In this document: one piece after another, positions 652 through 5,660 of the stretch
How the letters are laid out: every line of letters starts with the position of its first letter
How positions within the stretch are numbered: the first letter of the stretch is position 1
Assembly (NCBI RefSeq): GCF_014925385.1
Contig: NZ_JACSDK010000017.1
Coordinates: 62,001 to 126,000, forward strand
DNA length: 64,000 bases
Source: Pelagibius marinus
Lineage (GTDB): Bacteria > Pseudomonadota > Alphaproteobacteria > Kiloniellales > Kiloniellaceae
Direction: 5' to 3'
Translations under genes and position numbers: made by a program
Notes under the pieces: model-generated
The model's input: only the letters and a program-made list of their open reading frames with translations
Database searches by the model: none
Told to the model about the DNA's origin: nothing

Positions 652-1425
652 CTACTCCCCGTAGACATCGAAGCCGAACCACTTCTCGGAGATCTTCTGA
701 TACGTGCCGTCGGCACGGACCTTGGCAATGGCGTCCGAGAAGGCGTCCGCGATGTGTGCGTCTTCCTTGCGCACACCGACACCGGCGCCGTAGCCGAACC
801 ACTTCGCGCCAGTATACTCCGGGCCGCGGAACTCGAAGCCCTCTCCCTCCGGCGTCTTCAGGAATCCTTCGGACGCTGCGACAACGTCGGCCATGATGGC
901 GTCGACGCGGCCCGATTGGAGGTCGAGATAGGCCTCTTCCATCGTGGCGTAGACCCTCAAGTCGATGCCGGCCATCTCATCGCGCATGAAGCGCTCGAAG
1001 CTGGTGGCGCGCTGGGTGCCGACGACCTTCCCCTGCATGGCCTCCCGGCTGATCTCGAGCGTGCTCGCCTTAGGGACCACGAAGCGAGCCGGCACCTGGT
1101 AATACTTGTCCGAGAAGGTAATGCGTTCGCGCCGCTCGTCGGTGATGTAGAGGGAGGCGATGATGGCATCGTATTTCTGCGCCAGGAGGCCGGGAATGAT
1201 GCCATCCCAGTCCTGCACCGCGAACTCGCAGTTCGCCCCGATCTCATCGCACATGGCACGCGCCAAGTCGATCTCGAAGCCTTGCACCTTGCCTTCGTCG
1301 TCGAGGTAGTTAAAGGGCGCGTAGGCGCCTTCGGTCGCGATCCGGAGTGGGTTGGGCAGCTCCTGCGCGGAAGCGGGGATGGCAAGCAGAAGCGTGCCCA
1401 AGATCAGGCTGACGGTGGTTCGCAT
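652..1425 (-). CDS. Periplasmic amino-acid-binding protein of an ABC importer
   Basis: Solute-binding protein family 3 (SBP_bac_3), 257 residues, the usual size. A Sec signal peptide ends at about residue 21 (LLLAIPASA, then Q). The mature N-terminus RIATEGAYAPFNY and the segment GFEIDLARAMCDEI are the classic family 3 pattern, and a C-terminal DGTYQKISEKWFG helix is present. I chose the ATG at 1425 because the signal peptide starts there and a GGGAG-like ribosome site precedes it; a longer in-frame extension lacks both. It probably delivers a basic or opine-like amino acid to the permease at 1-614. A GntR-type palindrome lies just upstream. Confidence 0.88.
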   Translation of the reverse strand: MRTTVSLILGTLLLAIPASAQELPNPLRIATEGAYAPFNYLDDEGKVQGFEIDLARAMCDEIGANCEFAVQDWDGIIPGLLAQKYDAIIASLYITDERRERITFSDKYYQVPARFVVPKASTLEISREAMQGKVVGTQRATSFERFMRDEMAGIDLRVYATMEEAYLDLQSGRVDAIMADVVAASEGFLKTPEGEGFEFRGPEYTGAKWFGYGAGVGVRKEDAHIADAFSDAIAKVRADGTYQKISEKWFGFDVYGE

Positions 1426-1446
1426 GACAGGCTCCCTGTTGTCGTT

Positions 1447-1458
1447 ATTGTATACAAT
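1447..1458. promoter_or_regulatory. GntR (FCD/FadR-like) operator candidate
   Basis: ATTGTATACAAT is a perfect 12-base palindrome, 22 bases upstream of the binding-protein start. The core TTGTATACAA matches the operators generally bound by FadR/FCD-type GntR repressors. Its position, overlapping where the promoter or leader should lie, fits repression of the transporter. No GntR gene is visible in the window, so the regulator is inferred. Confidence 0.5.
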
Positions 1459-1666
1459 ATTGCATGCGATCGAGGCTGCGTCAACTGTCTCTCTGGCCGA
1501 CGACATCGGCTGAAGCTCTTTGAGCCCAATCGCGTTCGACGCTCCGCGCCCTCCGGAATGCCTCCACGCATTCCGCGGACTTTGGAATAGCCAAAGCGAA
1601 GAACGCCGCGAACAGGCCGCTGAAGCAAAAATCAGGCTGAGGGATCTCAGGCGCCGGATTGAAATG

Positions 1667-2455
1667 TCATGGTCCATGGTCTTGCAGAAAGCTGGATACC
1701 GCTTGGTTAAACTCCGCAGGGTTTTCGATGTTGATCGAATGACCACCATCGAGATCGGTGATGGATATTTCCGGATGAGTTGCGGCTAACCAGTCGCGCG
1801 TTGGCTGAAATCGCCGCTCCTTCAACCCGTTTACCAGCAAGGTCGGGACCCGCAGTTCACCCAGCCGGTCACAAACGAAAAGTCGCGGGATCGCCTCTTG
1901 CTGCAGGAGTGCATAGCCTCCGGGATCGACCTTGTCGGCTTCTATGCTCAGGATTTTGCGGATTTCGGGAGAGAAGCGACGGGCATGGACCGGATGATAG
2001 GGTATCCGGCGGATCGCCGTGGGCCCACCGGACCACAGCGCCGCAACCAGATCGCGATGCGCGGCCTGCGCGTCTGGAGGCCAGTGCCGGCGTAGCGCTG
2101 CGTTCGCGTTGGTGAAGATCTGCGCGATGCATCGATCCGGGTAGTCGAGCGCATATCTCAGCGAGAGGCCTGCTCCGAAGCTCTGCCCGCAGATATGCCA
2201 CCGCGGAATACCCAGGGAGCAGCGCAGTATGTCCAGAGCGCGAACCATGGCCTCTGGTCGAGCCGCTTCGGGCTCCTCCAGCGTGGGCGATGCGCCGTGC
2301 GCGGGAAGGTCGACCCGGATAATGCGGAACACTTTCGACAGGGCCCGGTTCGGCAGCCAATGCTCCCGGCTGGACAAAAGGCCGTGGATCAGCAGCAGCG
2401 GCGGCAGGTCGCTTTCAGGACCGGTATCGTAGGCAAAGACCGGTAGGCCACTCAT
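1667..2455 (-). CDS. Alpha/beta-hydrolase fold protein
   Basis: Probable cytoplasmic esterase or lyase-type hydrolase, 262 residues. Visible family marks are the oxyanion HG (about residues 24-25), the nucleophile elbow GQSFGAG with Ser at about 92, and the catalytic His in DGGHSIN at about 239. The acid after strand 7 is not the usual Asp; the region reads VNGLKERRF, so a Glu may serve. The ATG at 2455 is chosen because the longer reading adds about 47 basic, non-conserved residues; the ribosome site is weak (AGAGG almost abutting the ATG). It is divergent from the FadJ-like gene and shares a palindromic intergenic region with it. Substrate unknown. Confidence 0.75.
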   Translation of the reverse strand: MSGLPVFAYDTGPESDLPPLLLIHGLLSSREHWLPNRALSKVFRIIRVDLPAHGASPTLEEPEAARPEAMVRALDILRCSLGIPRWHICGQSFGAGLSLRYALDYPDRCIAQIFTNANAALRRHWPPDAQAAHRDLVAALWSGGPTAIRRIPYHPVHARRFSPEIRKILSIEADKVDPGGYALLQQEAIPRLFVCDRLGELRVPTLLVNGLKERRFQPTRDWLAATHPEISITDLDGGHSINIENPAEFNQAVSSFLQDHGP

Positions 2456-2601
2456 CCTCTGAAGATGTCCCTGAGGGTAATTGAAGTTCTCACAGCACCT
2501 TTGACCTTGCCGGCCGGTTTGACCCGCACTGGAAGAACGAGCCCGCCGGTCGACTTCCGGAGAAGCATACCCAAATACCGTGTGGTCTAGACCCAACCAT
2601 T

Positions 2602-2620
2602 TGTTTGGTTACTCCAAACA
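2602..2620. promoter_or_regulatory. 19-base palindrome between divergent genes
   Basis: TGTTTGG-TTACT-CCAAACA is a perfect 7+5+7 inverted repeat about 147 bases from the hydrolase start and 69 bases from the FadJ-like start. Its size and place in a divergent intergenic region suggest an operator for a dimeric regulator such as TetR or MarR type. No cognate regulator is seen here. Confidence 0.4.
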
Positions 2621-2688
2621 TAGCAGCGCCTATACCAGCCCAAAGCAGGCGCACTCGCATGGGGCGCTTCATCGATGGAGGGAACCAT

Positions 2689-4641
2689 ATGTCCGTCGTC
2701 AGCCTTGAAGTCCACGACCAGGTCGCCAGCGTCATCATCGACAATCCGCCGGTGAACGCGCTGGGGCGCGAGGTAAGGGCCGGGCTCCTGGATGCCTGCC
2801 GATCGATTGACCAGGATCCCTCGGTCAAGGCCGTTGTCCTGTCCTGCAAGGGGCGCAGTTTCGTTGCGGGGGCGGACATCCGCGAATTGGGGAAGAGGCC
2901 CCTCGAACCCTATCTGCCTGACGTGCTGGCGGCGATCGAAGGCTCGCGGGTGCCCTGGGTCGCGGCGATCCATGGCACCGCACTCGGTGGCGGGCTTGAA
3001 CTGGCGATGGCCTGCCACGGGCGCGTCACTGCGCCATCGGCGAAGTTGGGGCTGCCTGAAGTGACTCTTGGCATCATTCCAGGCTCGGGCGGTACTGTAC
3101 GGTTGCCGCGACTTGTGCCGATGAGAACGGCCGTCGGAATGGTGACGGGCGGCAAGCCGGTGGAGGCTGAAGCGGCCTTCGATACGGGGTTGGTCGACGC
3201 GCTGAGCAACGGTAACCTGCTTGCCGATGCCAGGGCCATGGCACTTGAGCTTGCAGGGCAGGGTGATCCGGTGCCGACCTTATCGAGGAGGTTGGTGCCA
3301 GGCGACCCGGTGGACTGGACCGTCGAAGAGGGGCGCCTTCTAAAGCGCAGCCGAGGTGCGACGGCTCCGCTCGAGGCCTTGGCTACCCTGCGAGAAGGTG
3401 CCGATCTGCCGGCGGCCGAAGCACTGTCCCGAGAACGGGCGCGGTTCTTGCGGCTCGCCGCCTCCCACGAGGCCGCAGCTCTCCGCCACATCTTCTTCGC
3501 CGAACGCGCCGCGGGGCAGAGTCTGAAGTCCGTCGATGCCAAGCCCGTCGATCTGACGCATGTCGGTGTGATCGGCGGCGGGACGATGGGGGCGGGGATA
3601 GCTACCGCGCTGCTGCTGTCGGGCTCCGGGGTGCGGCTGATAGAACGAAACGCAACTGCTGTCGAGGCGGCGCGCCGGCGGGTCGCCGAAACACTGGCGG
3701 GCAGCGTCAAGCGGGGGGTCGTTACCCAGGCGAAGGCCGATGATGCTTTGGCCCGGCTTATTCCGGGTGATGACTATGCGGCGTTGGCGGATTGCCCGGT
3801 GGTGATTGAGGCCGTGTTCGAGGACATGAGCGTCAAGCGCGAGGTCTTTGCCGCCCTGGATGACGTGATGCCGGCGGACGCGATTCTGGCGACGAACACC
3901 TCCTATCTCGATGTGAACGATTTGGCCGCGATGACCCGAGACCCGTCGCGCCTTCTCGGTCTGCATTTCTTTTCGCCGGCCCATGTCATGAAGCTGCTTG
4001 AGGTGGTTCGCGGCGGGGCAACTGGCGCGCGGGCCCTGGCCACAGCGGCGGCACTGGCCAGGTTGCTGCGCAAGATCCCGGTTGTGGCTGGCGTTTGCGA
4101 TGGCTTCATCGGCAATCGGATCATGGCCGCTTACCGCAGGGATTGTGAGTTCATGCTTGAGGAGGGAGCGCTGCCGCATGAGATCGATGCCGCCATGCGC
4201 GACTTTGGTTTCGCTATGGGTCTCTACGAGGTGCAGGACATGAGCGGGCTGGATATCGCCTGGGCGCAACGCAGGGCTCGCGCGGCGCATCGCGATCCTT
4301 CCGAGCGCTATACGCATATTGCCGATCGTCTCTGCGAGGCCGGGCGCCTGGGGCGCAAGGCCGGAAAGGGATGGTACGACTACAGCACGGGAGTGGCCGA
4401 ACCGGACGCGGAAGTACTGCACATCCTCGAGGAGGAGAGCGAAAAGGCCGGCCGGATACGCCGCCGGTTCTCCGCTGAAGAGGTCATGCAGCGGATTCTC
4501 GGCGTCATGCAGGAGGAGGGAAGAGCAATTCTCCGGGAAGGCATTGCCGAAAGCGCTGGTGATATCGACGTCGTAATGGTGCTGGGCTATGGCTTCCCAC
4601 GGCATAAAGGTGGCCCCATGTTCATGGCCGGTGCCCGCTAA
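2689..4641 (+). CDS. FadJ/FadB-type enoyl-CoA hydratase / 3-hydroxyacyl-CoA dehydrogenase, C-terminus short
   Basis: Bifunctional beta-oxidation enzyme, 650 residues. Residues 1-190 are a crotonase domain with the oxyanion segment SFVAGADIREL and both catalytic Glu (GGGLE at about 104, GLPEVTLG at about 124). Around residue 300 a Rossmann NAD site GGGTMGAG begins, followed by the dehydrogenase His in GLHFFSPAH. Start ATG 2689 has GGAGGG in front. The protein stops at GGPMFMAGAR, about 40-60 residues before the usual FadB/FadJ end, so the last helical region is missing. The stop overlaps the end of a convergent acyl-CoA dehydrogenase remnant. Both catalytic centres look intact, but stability or subunit docking may be affected. 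Confidence 0.85.
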   Translation: MSVVSLEVHDQVASVIIDNPPVNALGREVRAGLLDACRSIDQDPSVKAVVLSCKGRSFVAGADIRELGKRPLEPYLPDVLAAIEGSRVPWVAAIHGTALGGGLELAMACHGRVTAPSAKLGLPEVTLGIIPGSGGTVRLPRLVPMRTAVGMVTGGKPVEAEAAFDTGLVDALSNGNLLADARAMALELAGQGDPVPTLSRRLVPGDPVDWTVEEGRLLKRSRGATAPLEALATLREGADLPAAEALSRERARFLRLAASHEAAALRHIFFAERAAGQSLKSVDAKPVDLTHVGVIGGGTMGAGIATALLLSGSGVRLIERNATAVEAARRRVAETLAGSVKRGVVTQAKADDALARLIPGDDYAALADCPVVIEAVFEDMSVKREVFAALDDVMPADAILATNTSYLDVNDLAAMTRDPSRLLGLHFFSPAHVMKLLEVVRGGATGARALATAAALARLLRKIPVVAGVCDGFIGNRIMAAYRRDCEFMLEEGALPHEIDAAMRDFGFAMGLYEVQDMSGLDIAWAQRRARAAHRDPSERYTHIADRLCEAGRLGRKAGKGWYDYSTGVAEPDAEVLHILEEESEKAGRIRRRFSAEEVMQRILGVMQEEGRAILREGIAESAGDIDVVMVLGYGFPRHKGGPMFMAGAR

Positions 4642-5014
4642 TCAGGTGAATCCGCTGGCCGTTGAGAAAAGCGGCGACGAAAAACGCCCTCGGCGATCTT
4701 GGTCTTGAGGATCTCAACCGATCCGCCCGCGATCATCCAACCCCTGGTGCGGCGTTGGCAGTATTGAACGGTGATTTCCTCGGAAAATCCCATGCCGCCC
4801 ATGATCTGCAACGCCTCGTTGGCGGCGAAGTAACCGGCTTCGTTACAGGCGAGCTTGGCCATGGCGGCTGCCTGTGCGGAGGGCAGGCCGCCTGGCGCTG
4901 TCGCCGCGGCCCGAAGGAGCAGCAGCTGCGCCGCCTCCAGTTTTGTCGCCGCGACTAGACCTGCCTATGGGGTGAAGGCGCGCTCTTCCAAGGAGTTGAT
5001 GTCGCCTCCTGGCA
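4638..5014 (-). pseudogene. Acyl-CoA dehydrogenase C-terminal remnant
   Basis: The reading frame ending at 4638 gives the C-terminal helical domain of an acyl-CoA dehydrogenase: AKLACNEAGYFAANEALQI, GGMGFSEE, YCQRRTRGWMIAGGS and IAEGVFRRRFSQRP. Going upstream the frame continues as AGLVAATKLEAAQLLLLRAA but is interrupted by an in-frame TAG at 4965-4967, where a CAG codon would fit. Beyond it the family-like residues DINSLEERAFTP run out and a TGA follows. No N-terminal or FAD-binding part is present. This is a decayed gene fragment, convergent with the FadJ-like gene, presumably a former beta-oxidation partner. Confidence 0.75.
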
Positions 5015-5233
5015 TTCAGCGGCCGTTTATCAGAAGCGGCAGACTGGTCCGCTCCCCGGCTGCATGCCGACATAGACGAGTTGGACGCCTCAAATGTCAG
5101 CCTGGCGGCGCTGACCAGGCCCGAGGAGGTGGCCTCCGGAAAGGCGGCTCGTGACCCTAAACGGACATTCATTTGCTTGTCCGGAACATCCGCCCGTTTT
5201 CCCCGCGATGCCGTCAAGATTGGCTTGGCACCT
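5015..5233. other. Non-coding decayed DNA between two gene remnants
   Basis: No supportable gene. On the minus strand short GTCCG/GACATT-like words and alternating GCCGCTTC/GAAGCGGC-like words recur, resembling the dispersed intergenic repeats that give spurious short peptides in many alphaproteobacteria. That resemblance is from memory of such repeats and is weak. The stretch looks like scar sequence between the acyl-CoA dehydrogenase remnant and the probable integrase remnant. Confidence 0.3.
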
Positions 5234-5509
5234 TCAGGCAAACTGCTGGCGCACGGCTGCAAAGATGCCGCGGGCCTGGTAGCTGCGGTATCGCTCCATC
5301 GTCAGAGGATCTGCGGTGCCTTTCGAGATCTTCTCGCGATGGCCGTTGGGAAGGTAGCTCAGGTCACCGCCCGGCAGGTCGCGGCGGCGGAAGCGGTAGA
5401 GGGCGCCGCGGCGGCGCCGGTGCTGGTTCTGGATCGACAAGCTGGCGGGCCTTTTCGTGGGTGCGCCGTAGCCAGGAGAGAGGCCCTTGAACGGCCGTCT
5501 TGTGGACAA
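5234..5509 (-). pseudogene. Probable N-terminal remnant of a tyrosine-recombinase integrase
   Basis: A 91-codon frame whose middle reads GALYRFRRRDLPGGDL, then a Gly/Arg turn and ISKGTADPLTMERYR. This is the layout of the N-terminal arm-binding segment of many proteobacterial tyrosine recombinases (YRFRRRVP-x-L, REI-x-SLGT-x-DP). It stops after FAAVRQQFA, so the core and catalytic domains (the Arg, His and Tyr residues) are absent. It begins about 80 bases from the 3' end of tRNA-Gln, where an island integrase is expected, and tandem TGTGGTACAG repeats lie just upstream. The identification rests on a short pattern and position only; no full-length match is possible. Confidence 0.45.
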
Positions 5510-5513
5510 GCCG

Positions 5514-5536
5514 TGTGGTACAGCTCTGTGGTACAG
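5514..5536. repeat. Tandem 10-base direct repeat TGTGGTACAG
   Basis: TGTGGTACAG occurs at 5514-5523 and again at 5527-5536, a 13-base period. The second copy is also part of a hairpin CTCTG-TGGTA-CAGAG. The pair sits between the integrase-like remnant and tRNA-Gln, where arm-type recombinase sites often lie. That function is inferred from position. Confidence 0.45.
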
Positions 5537-5586
5537 AGCGTCTCCGCGCCTGTAAGCAACTGATTTTTCTGGTACTTTTGGAAGAG

Positions 5587-5660
5587 TGGCTGGGGGACCT
5601 GGATTCGAACCAGGGCTGCTCGGGTCAGAGCCGAGAGTTCTACCGCTAAACTATCCCCCA
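5587..5660 (-). tRNA. tRNA-Gln (anticodon CTG)
   Basis: Complete cloverleaf on the minus strand. The seven-base acceptor stem TGGGGGA/TCCCCCA is followed by discriminator G and an encoded CCA. The anticodon stem CTCGG/CCGAG encloses the loop CTCTGAC, giving anticodon CTG, which reads the glutamine codon CAG. The T arm contains GGTTCGAATCC. The 3' end points left, towards the accessory block, which is the usual arrangement when a tRNA 3' end serves as an integration site. Confidence 0.95.

Follow-up and report, generated by a model that had tools for sequence, protein, structure and literature searches.

The region between positions 5234 and 5660 of the window, that is, of the whole 64,000-nucleotide stretch of Pelagibius marinus DNA analysed here (contig 17:62001-126000, in a genome of 5.44 Mb), is best read as attL, the end on the tRNA side, of an old element inserted at tRNA-Gln, a reading to which we give a probability of almost nine in ten: the DUF6538 integrase of the element was destroyed, and three repeats beside the tRNA would be its arm-type sites. 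As far as the window is concerned, such a scar is ordinary genome archaeology, recording the entry route of a catabolic block into the Pelagibius chromosome. Beyond the window, DUF6538, a domain present on many alphaproteobacterial integrases, gains a specific and testable role, for which binding sites are predicted and one residue is a candidate determinant of specificity.

The integrase remnant beside tRNA-Gln

The features discussed below are listed with their positions in the window, their strand where one applies, and the evidence on which they were placed.

5587..5660, minus strand: tRNA-Gln(CTG), the attB target, with its encoded CCA at 5589-5587 (ARAGORN; Rfam RF00005, 64.2 bits; homology with congeners)
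5587..5606, minus strand: 20-nt core segment of the tRNA 3' end (exact repeat at contig 17:46339-46358, window -15661, in the same orientation)
5527..5536: putative arm-type repeat unit 1, TGTGGTACAG (sequence; tandem score 18/18 with unit 2)
5514..5523: putative arm-type repeat unit 2, TGTGGTACAG (sequence; 13 bp from unit 1)
5501..5510: putative arm-type repeat unit 3, TGTGGACAAG, a diverged copy (15/18 with unit 2, from which it is 13 bp away)
5234..5509, minus strand: 91-codon open frame holding the integrase remnant (open-reading-frame list)
5260..5440, minus strand: remnant of a DUF6538-type tyrosine integrase (DNA HSPs to Pelagibius litoralis contig 8; BLASTP; alignment)
4998..5156: sequence of about 159 bp in place of the missing integrase body (79-80% identity to two other copies)
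4638..4862, minus strand: C-terminal fragment of an acyl-CoA dehydrogenase, the scar's second case of gene decay (match to positions 90-149 of the 150 of PF00441, E 6.9e-11)
2605..4641, plus strand: cargo, an intact fadJ-type enoyl-CoA hydratase / 3-hydroxyacyl-CoA dehydrogenase (PF02737, PF00378)
652..2596, minus strand: cargo, a family-3 solute-binding protein and an alpha/beta hydrolase (PF00497, PF00561)

With tRNA-Gln(CTG) on the minus strand and its CCA at 5589-5587, the 3' side of the tRNA faces left in the window, and the accessory block lies on that side, as the initial annotation had it. The same annotation, made from the sequence alone, placed a probable N-terminal integrase remnant about 80 bases from the tRNA 3' end, with tandem repeats in between, and both statements hold: 77 bp separate the 91-codon frame from the CCA end, and three units, TGTGGTACAG, TGTGGTACAG and TGTGGACAAG, follow each other at a period of 13 bp between tRNA-Gln and the remnant, the third being an addition of the present analysis. 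In the whole 21.2-kb interval described in the next section, the best tandem match to the repeat unit is the pair formed by units 1 and 2 (18/18), and the next best is the pair formed by units 2 and 3 (15/18).

Searched directly against the Pfam and PHROG profiles, the 91-amino-acid frame gives no match at E ≤ 5, and its DUF6538 part is cut after about 14 residues. The comparison with recombinase profiles proposed in the annotation was thus negative for the frame itself, and it succeeded by way of a relative: the frame is read as an integrase because of this homologous relative and not because of a profile match of its own. The relative is an ORF on contig 8 of P. litoralis (G002), which carries DUF6538 at residues 30-87 (E 1.6e-15) and also lacks a catalytic domain. 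BLASTP aligns 44 amino acids of the frame to this ORF at 59% identity (E 3e-15), and a further alignment lies at the N-terminus. At the DNA level there are two HSPs, both at 73%: one covers positions 5381-5617 in 245 columns, the other 5260-5390 in 131 columns, and the homology spans the tRNA core, then the repeats, then the gene.

On the P. marinus side these HSPs share 10 bp, and their offsets are 231 bp apart, from which it follows that 231 bp, or 77 codons, are missing in frame from the window remnant. What is left is approximately the first 20 residues, 14 of them in the domain, fused in frame to residues 118-161 or so of the relative; everything past residue 161 or thereabouts is missing. 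Since the frame contains no PF00589 catalytic domain, it is a remnant and not a working tyrosine recombinase. Judged by this homology, what the 91-codon frame preserves is the beginning of a tyrosine integrase with DUF6538, now broken. Residue 24 of the P. litoralis ORF is encoded by ATG, and the frame has TTG at the corresponding place; the position of unit 3, TGTGGACAAG, corresponds to a 12-nt gap in the alignment, the relative having two units there.

Four further frames of the scar contain no recombinase in Pfam or PHROGs; the PHROG match of one opposite-strand frame (E 0.11) was taken as chance. The DUF6538 profile has no match in the P. marinus genome. The sequence that occupies the place of the integrase body is found, with a length of about 159-172 bp and 79-80% identity, at three places: window 4998-5156, contig 3:217924-218082 and G007 C53:167079-167250. 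The copy on contig 3 occupies the space separating a glyoxalase-family gene from its neighbour, near an rve (integrase-core) ORF.

The two ends of the interval and its cargo

The initial annotation suggested looking to the left of the window for a partial copy of the tRNA-Gln 3' end. Such a copy exists, with 20 of 20 nucleotides conserved and in the orientation of the tRNA, at contig 17:46339-46358. It lies 42 bp past the stop of a histidine-kinase gene; the distance from its start to the end of the tRNA is 21,248 bp (21.2 kb), and these are the only two core copies in contig positions 1-126000 when up to 3 mismatches are allowed. The histidine kinase has an 82% orthologue in genome G004, on the same side of tRNA-Gln, and a 65% orthologue in G005, on a separate contig. 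The left flank of P. marinus aligns with G004 in pieces, from contig 17:28981 to 46277 (the histidine kinase), and homology restarts at the tRNA.

The comparison of the tRNA locus among relatives, also suggested in the annotation, points the same way. Homology starts exactly at 5587, the CCA end, in all seven other Pelagibius genomes, and 8-9 nt further out, at 5578 and 5579, in two loci outside the genus. At the DNA level, a search with 18.5 of the 21.2 kb (contig 17:60001-62000 excluded), in which 37 first-look candidates were scored per genome, did not find the left block as a block in any of the seven congeners; the cargo has only scattered matches there, of 64-75% identity, in all seven. 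As no relative was found in which the histidine kinase directly abuts tRNA-Gln, we infer the empty site from synteny. The GC content is 0.641 in the interval, 0.651 to its left (0.637 in the nearest 17 kb) and 0.673 to its right, a contrast too small to be used as evidence for an island.

At the distal core of P. marinus, arm repeats are absent: the score there is 9/18, which 343 of the 344 other windows equal or exceed. Of all the results, this one speaks most against a history with just one element. Because the distal end lacks matching repeats, a single 21-kb element is not proven, and the interval may be composite. The claim of the annotation that this is the edge of an old island whose integrase was lost is therefore borne out by the remnant, by the 20-nt copy and by the absence of the block in congeners, and it stops short of a single element. 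Compared with a tRNA-targeted island, the region has an end at a tRNA 3' end, a distal direct repeat and a block absent from congeners (18.5 kb searched), with arm sites on the 5501-5536 side only and not, matching, at both ends.

The cargo includes an FGGY kinase, a DeoC/LacD aldolase, an FAD-dependent glycerophosphate oxidase-like protein, an aldo/keto reductase, a sugar-binding regulator, an ABC transporter and a gamma-glutamyltranspeptidase and, in the window, the solute-binding protein, the hydrolase and the fadJ-type gene. The first six of these, from the FGGY kinase to the ABC transporter, which is of the sugar type, form an operon-like set at contig 17:48303-58108 (L036:8303-18108) that may represent a sugar or polyol pathway. 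A GMC oxidoreductase gene is split over two overlapping frames at contig 17:46665-48310 (L036:6665-8310), so that decay seems to reach the distal end of the island too.

The scenario that we propose is the following. A tyrosine integrase with a DUF6538 domain would have recombined a core in the last 20 nucleotides or so of tRNA-Gln; integration would have restored the tRNA on one side and placed the 20-nt copy 21.2 kb away, beside the histidine-kinase gene of the host, and we infer that both cores come from one integration event. The DUF6538 domain would have bound the three 13-bp repeats as arm-type sites, assembling the recombination complex, while the lost rest of the protein would have bound and cut the tRNA core. 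A later in-frame deletion of 231 bp, together with the loss of the 3' part, destroyed the integrase, so that the cargo, with its sugar or polyol and fatty-acid genes, can no longer be moved by its own integrase.

In tRNA-targeted islands, whether P4-like or KplE1-like, the tRNA 3' end is the core, a direct repeat stands on the far side, and the integrase gene follows the tRNA immediately, in the same orientation. The window shares with them the core at the tRNA 3' end, the adjacent integrase gene on the same strand and the far-side direct repeat; it differs from them in that its integrase is destroyed, that the N-terminal domain is DUF6538, and that the cargo is catabolic. In KplE1, as part of PMC2951348 describes it, attL and the int promoter overlap, and this promoter is under autoregulation. 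An attL overlapping the int promoter region appears to be common to both, and the repeats of the window probably overlapped the promoter, which could have let the integrase repress itself.

The tRNA-Gln site is a recurrent integration target. In P. litoralis DSM 21314 (G002), contig 4 has at tRNA-Gln a 641-aa ORF that starts 120 bp from the CCA end and matches both DUF6538 (6.3e-12) and Phage_integrase PF00589 (5e-12), an intact integrase frame. The two integrase loci of this species, on contigs 8 and 4, have in common with the window the tRNA-Gln core, the arm layout and the DUF6538 domain. The contig 8 ORF is truncated elsewhere than the window remnant, and its locus has two clear repeat units; the contig 4 integrase is of a different subtype from that of the window, and its repeats are TGTGACACA. 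On contig 8, the tRNA core has an A-type integrase remnant on its left, and the tRNA itself, on contig 4, carries a B-type integrase. In genome G004, a copy of the core, 28 nt long, lies at 21.7 kb from tRNA-Gln. When the sequences are compared by eye, the tRNA-side arm of G004 resembles the arm on P. litoralis contig 4, and the B-type arm at its distal end resembles the right side of the core of contig 8. This comparison of arms suggests that, in P. litoralis, an element was inserted between the tRNA and an older, window-type element, contigs 4 and 8 being unjoined.

A search for A-type integrases in 61 genomes of the order (E ≤ 1e-15) returned P. litoralis only, a search of genome contigs returned the same locus alone, and viral contigs had no match to either type. 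The search for B-type integrases in 289 genomes of the class returned none at E ≤ 1e-60, a cut-off too strict for the result to mean much.

Just to the right of the partial tRNA-Gln core on P. litoralis contig 8 lie homologues of GajB and GajA (L047:8573-12423; PADLOC E 1.4e-214 and 3.1e-237), and with such a Gabija-type pair beside the core, the tRNA-Gln elements of the genus may carry defence cargo. In G004, the histidine kinase and the core copy are separated by a segment of 8.6 kb (C1:2533812-2542424) that is absent from that place in P. marinus; its ORFs resemble what we take to be thymidine phosphorylase and PRPP synthetase, and it is either a further insertion or the trace of a deletion in the P. 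marinus lineage.

Tandem repeats of DUF6538 integrases and competing readings

The DUF6538 profile has matches in 20 of 59 genomes of the order (E ≤ 0.001) and in 37 of 289 genomes of the class sample (E ≤ 1e-8). The loci studied here are the best-scoring 24 of the order and 30 of the class, and are not a random draw. A tRNA on the same strand stands upstream of the domain in 32 of these 54 loci, and in eight of them it is tRNA-Gln. As a yardstick we used integrases with Arm-DNA-bind_3 (PF13356), an arm-binding family by its Pfam name, among which a tRNA on either strand lies upstream in 2 of 30 loci, one of the two being on the opposite strand.

Two loci, L093 and L095, were dropped from the period and residue tests because the start of the domain could not be placed. 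In the 150 bp that precede the domain, tandem repeats with at least 8 matches of 9 occur with period 13 in 21 of the 52 loci and with period 12 in 11; the corresponding figures for periods 13 and 12 are means of 0.75 and 0.60 in dinucleotide shuffles, 0 and 3 in far-upstream windows, and 0 and 0 in coding windows. One or the other period is present in 31 of the 52 loci, where about one is expected, and in 28 of 48 genomes. With similar upstream regions removed, the count is 30 of 51, for a mean of 1.05 and a maximum of 4 in mononucleotide shuffles.

The Arm-DNA-bind_3 loci of the same order (L130-L159) have period 11 in 14 of 30 cases, period 12 in 2 and period 13 in 1: the same scan thus yields different periods for the two classes of integrases, and the repeats of the window are 13 bp apart, against the 11 bp of this class. 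The PF13356 match starts inside the domain at several loci (for example L136, L137, L139, L150, L153, L154), so that part of the 150 bp is coding there; when the scan is moved to 50-250 bp upstream, period 11 is found in 8 of 30 loci and period 10 in 5 of 30.

For 20 tRNA-linked elements, the downstream DNA that was fetched was scanned for the tRNA 3' end. Fourteen of them have an exact copy of 17-20 nt, ending at the last base of the tRNA, at about 2.7 to 37.4 kb; for the other six (G038 and G044, both Gln, G036, G002 C4, G226 and G259) no distal copy was found in the fetched DNA. The unit of the integrase side, itself weak (6-7 of 9) in five of the fourteen (G256, G269, G264, G266, G296), recurs in tandem inside the distal copy in ten elements, with p ≤ 0.0051 relative to other windows of the same DNA. 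The remaining four are not clear (G096, p 0.036; G264, p 0.059; G340, p 0.085; G269, p 0.91). The distal arm of G004 scores 17/18 for the unit of the integrase side, and none of 351 windows does as well.

This recurrence bears directly on the nature of the repeats, which might be operator or promoter repeats of the integrase gene and not arm-type sites. Their position just upstream of the integrase start would suit such a role, and so would the autoregulated KplE1 int promoter overlapping attL, as given in part of PMC2951348. However, the unit recurs inside the distal core, far from the integrase gene, in 10 of 14 elements (p ≤ 0.0051) and in G004 (17/18), and the same part of PMC2951348 indicates that the two roles can coexist; we regard a purely regulatory role as improbable. 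It is harder still to believe that the frame arose by chance in ordinary intergenic DNA beside a tRNA, with no island at all. A short frame with a TTG start and no direct profile match is what such an accident would look like, but this one is homologous, in protein as well as in DNA, to an integrase locus that shares its tRNA core and its repeats, and the exact 20-nt copy of the tRNA sits next to a synteny breakpoint: unless the matches are artefacts, this homology and this copy refute the idea.

The interval could also be a composite island, in which the integrase remnant and the tRNA-side repeats come from one element and the far 20-nt core from another, the two having been stacked at the tRNA and their inner ends lost. 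This deserves serious consideration, at somewhat less than an even chance. The distal end of P. marinus has no matching repeats, stacking is suggested in P. litoralis by the A-type remnant, the B-type arm and the B-type integrase of contigs 8 and 4, and G004 has its core copy 21.7 kb from the tRNA, with 8.6 kb more before the histidine kinase. On the other hand, contig positions 1-126000 contain just two core copies with at most 3 mismatches, and a single element with one decayed distal arm would give an identical picture.

If the reading as arm-type sites is true, the TGTGGTACAG triplet outlived its integrase, and such repeats can therefore locate the edges of islands that have none. Paired repeats of 12-13 bp, together with the 17-20 nt of a tRNA end, would then give the exact ends of an island, even one with a decayed integrase.

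DUF6538 as a candidate arm-binding domain

The repeats, their recurrence at both ends and the predicted fold are best read together, and DUF6538 is probably an arm-binding domain. In its complete form, the proposal is that DUF6538 (PF20172) serves tRNA-targeting tyrosine integrases as a distinct arm-binding domain, which reads tandem sites of 12-13 bp in both att arms and in which one residue, the first of strand 3, helps to choose the unit, His for TGTGACACA and Glu for TGNTACA; the triplet of the window would be one such site that survived the enzyme. We consider this proposal likely.

The AlphaFold2 model of the DUF6538 region, based on 36 sequences (pLDDT 88.4), has strands at 7-10, 13-19 and 32-36, and a helix at 42-69. 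Part of PMC8138268 describes the fold of arm-binding (AB) domains as three strands followed by one helix, and names DUF3596 and DUF4102 among them; unlike these two, DUF6538 is not among the AB domains in the available text of that article. With the AB-domain tyrosine recombinases described there, DUF6538 has in common the predicted beta-beta-beta-alpha fold, the N-terminal position, and tandem sites in both att arms.

Foldseek gave no match to the model at E ≤ 0.001, and the best Z score in VIA-align was 4.3, with no arm-binding domain among the matches listed, an outcome compatible with such a fold. Comparing the DUF6538 profile with PDB sequences gave nothing significant, and one of the 36 members matches Arm-DNA-bind_3, weakly (E 0.13). 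In the literature, the word DUF6538 appears in no text found, the combination of TGGTACA, integrase and tRNA returned nothing relevant by title, and the available part of PMC11476347, on S. meliloti hot spots, was found to contain no mention of a glutamine tRNA or of arm terms.

The candidate residue comes from 346 tests of residue columns, with unit classes that were set after looking at the sequences. For both the TGTGACACA and the TGNTACA classes, the top rank goes to column 35, the position that opens strand 3 and that His32 occupies in the contig 4 protein; for the GACCA class it is not first. At least two TGTGACACA units are present in 5 of 6 loci with His at this position versus 0 of 46 others (one-sided p 2.3e-6). 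With Glu, at least one TGNTACA is present in 15 of 23 loci versus 3 of 29 (one-sided p 4.4e-5), and at least two in 8 of 23 versus 1 of 29 (p 0.0068).

These associations were placed on a tree of the remaining integrase part, built from 41 of the 52 rows, the 11 rows under 300 aa being dropped. His and TGTGACACA change together on this tree, with two changes each, and one independent pair is supported; among the pairs for Glu there is disagreement, with averages of 0.4 going the same way and 1.1 the other way. The covariation of residue and unit is thus suggestive, not proven. In the window, the remnant has lost the strand-3 residue that is the candidate for specificity.
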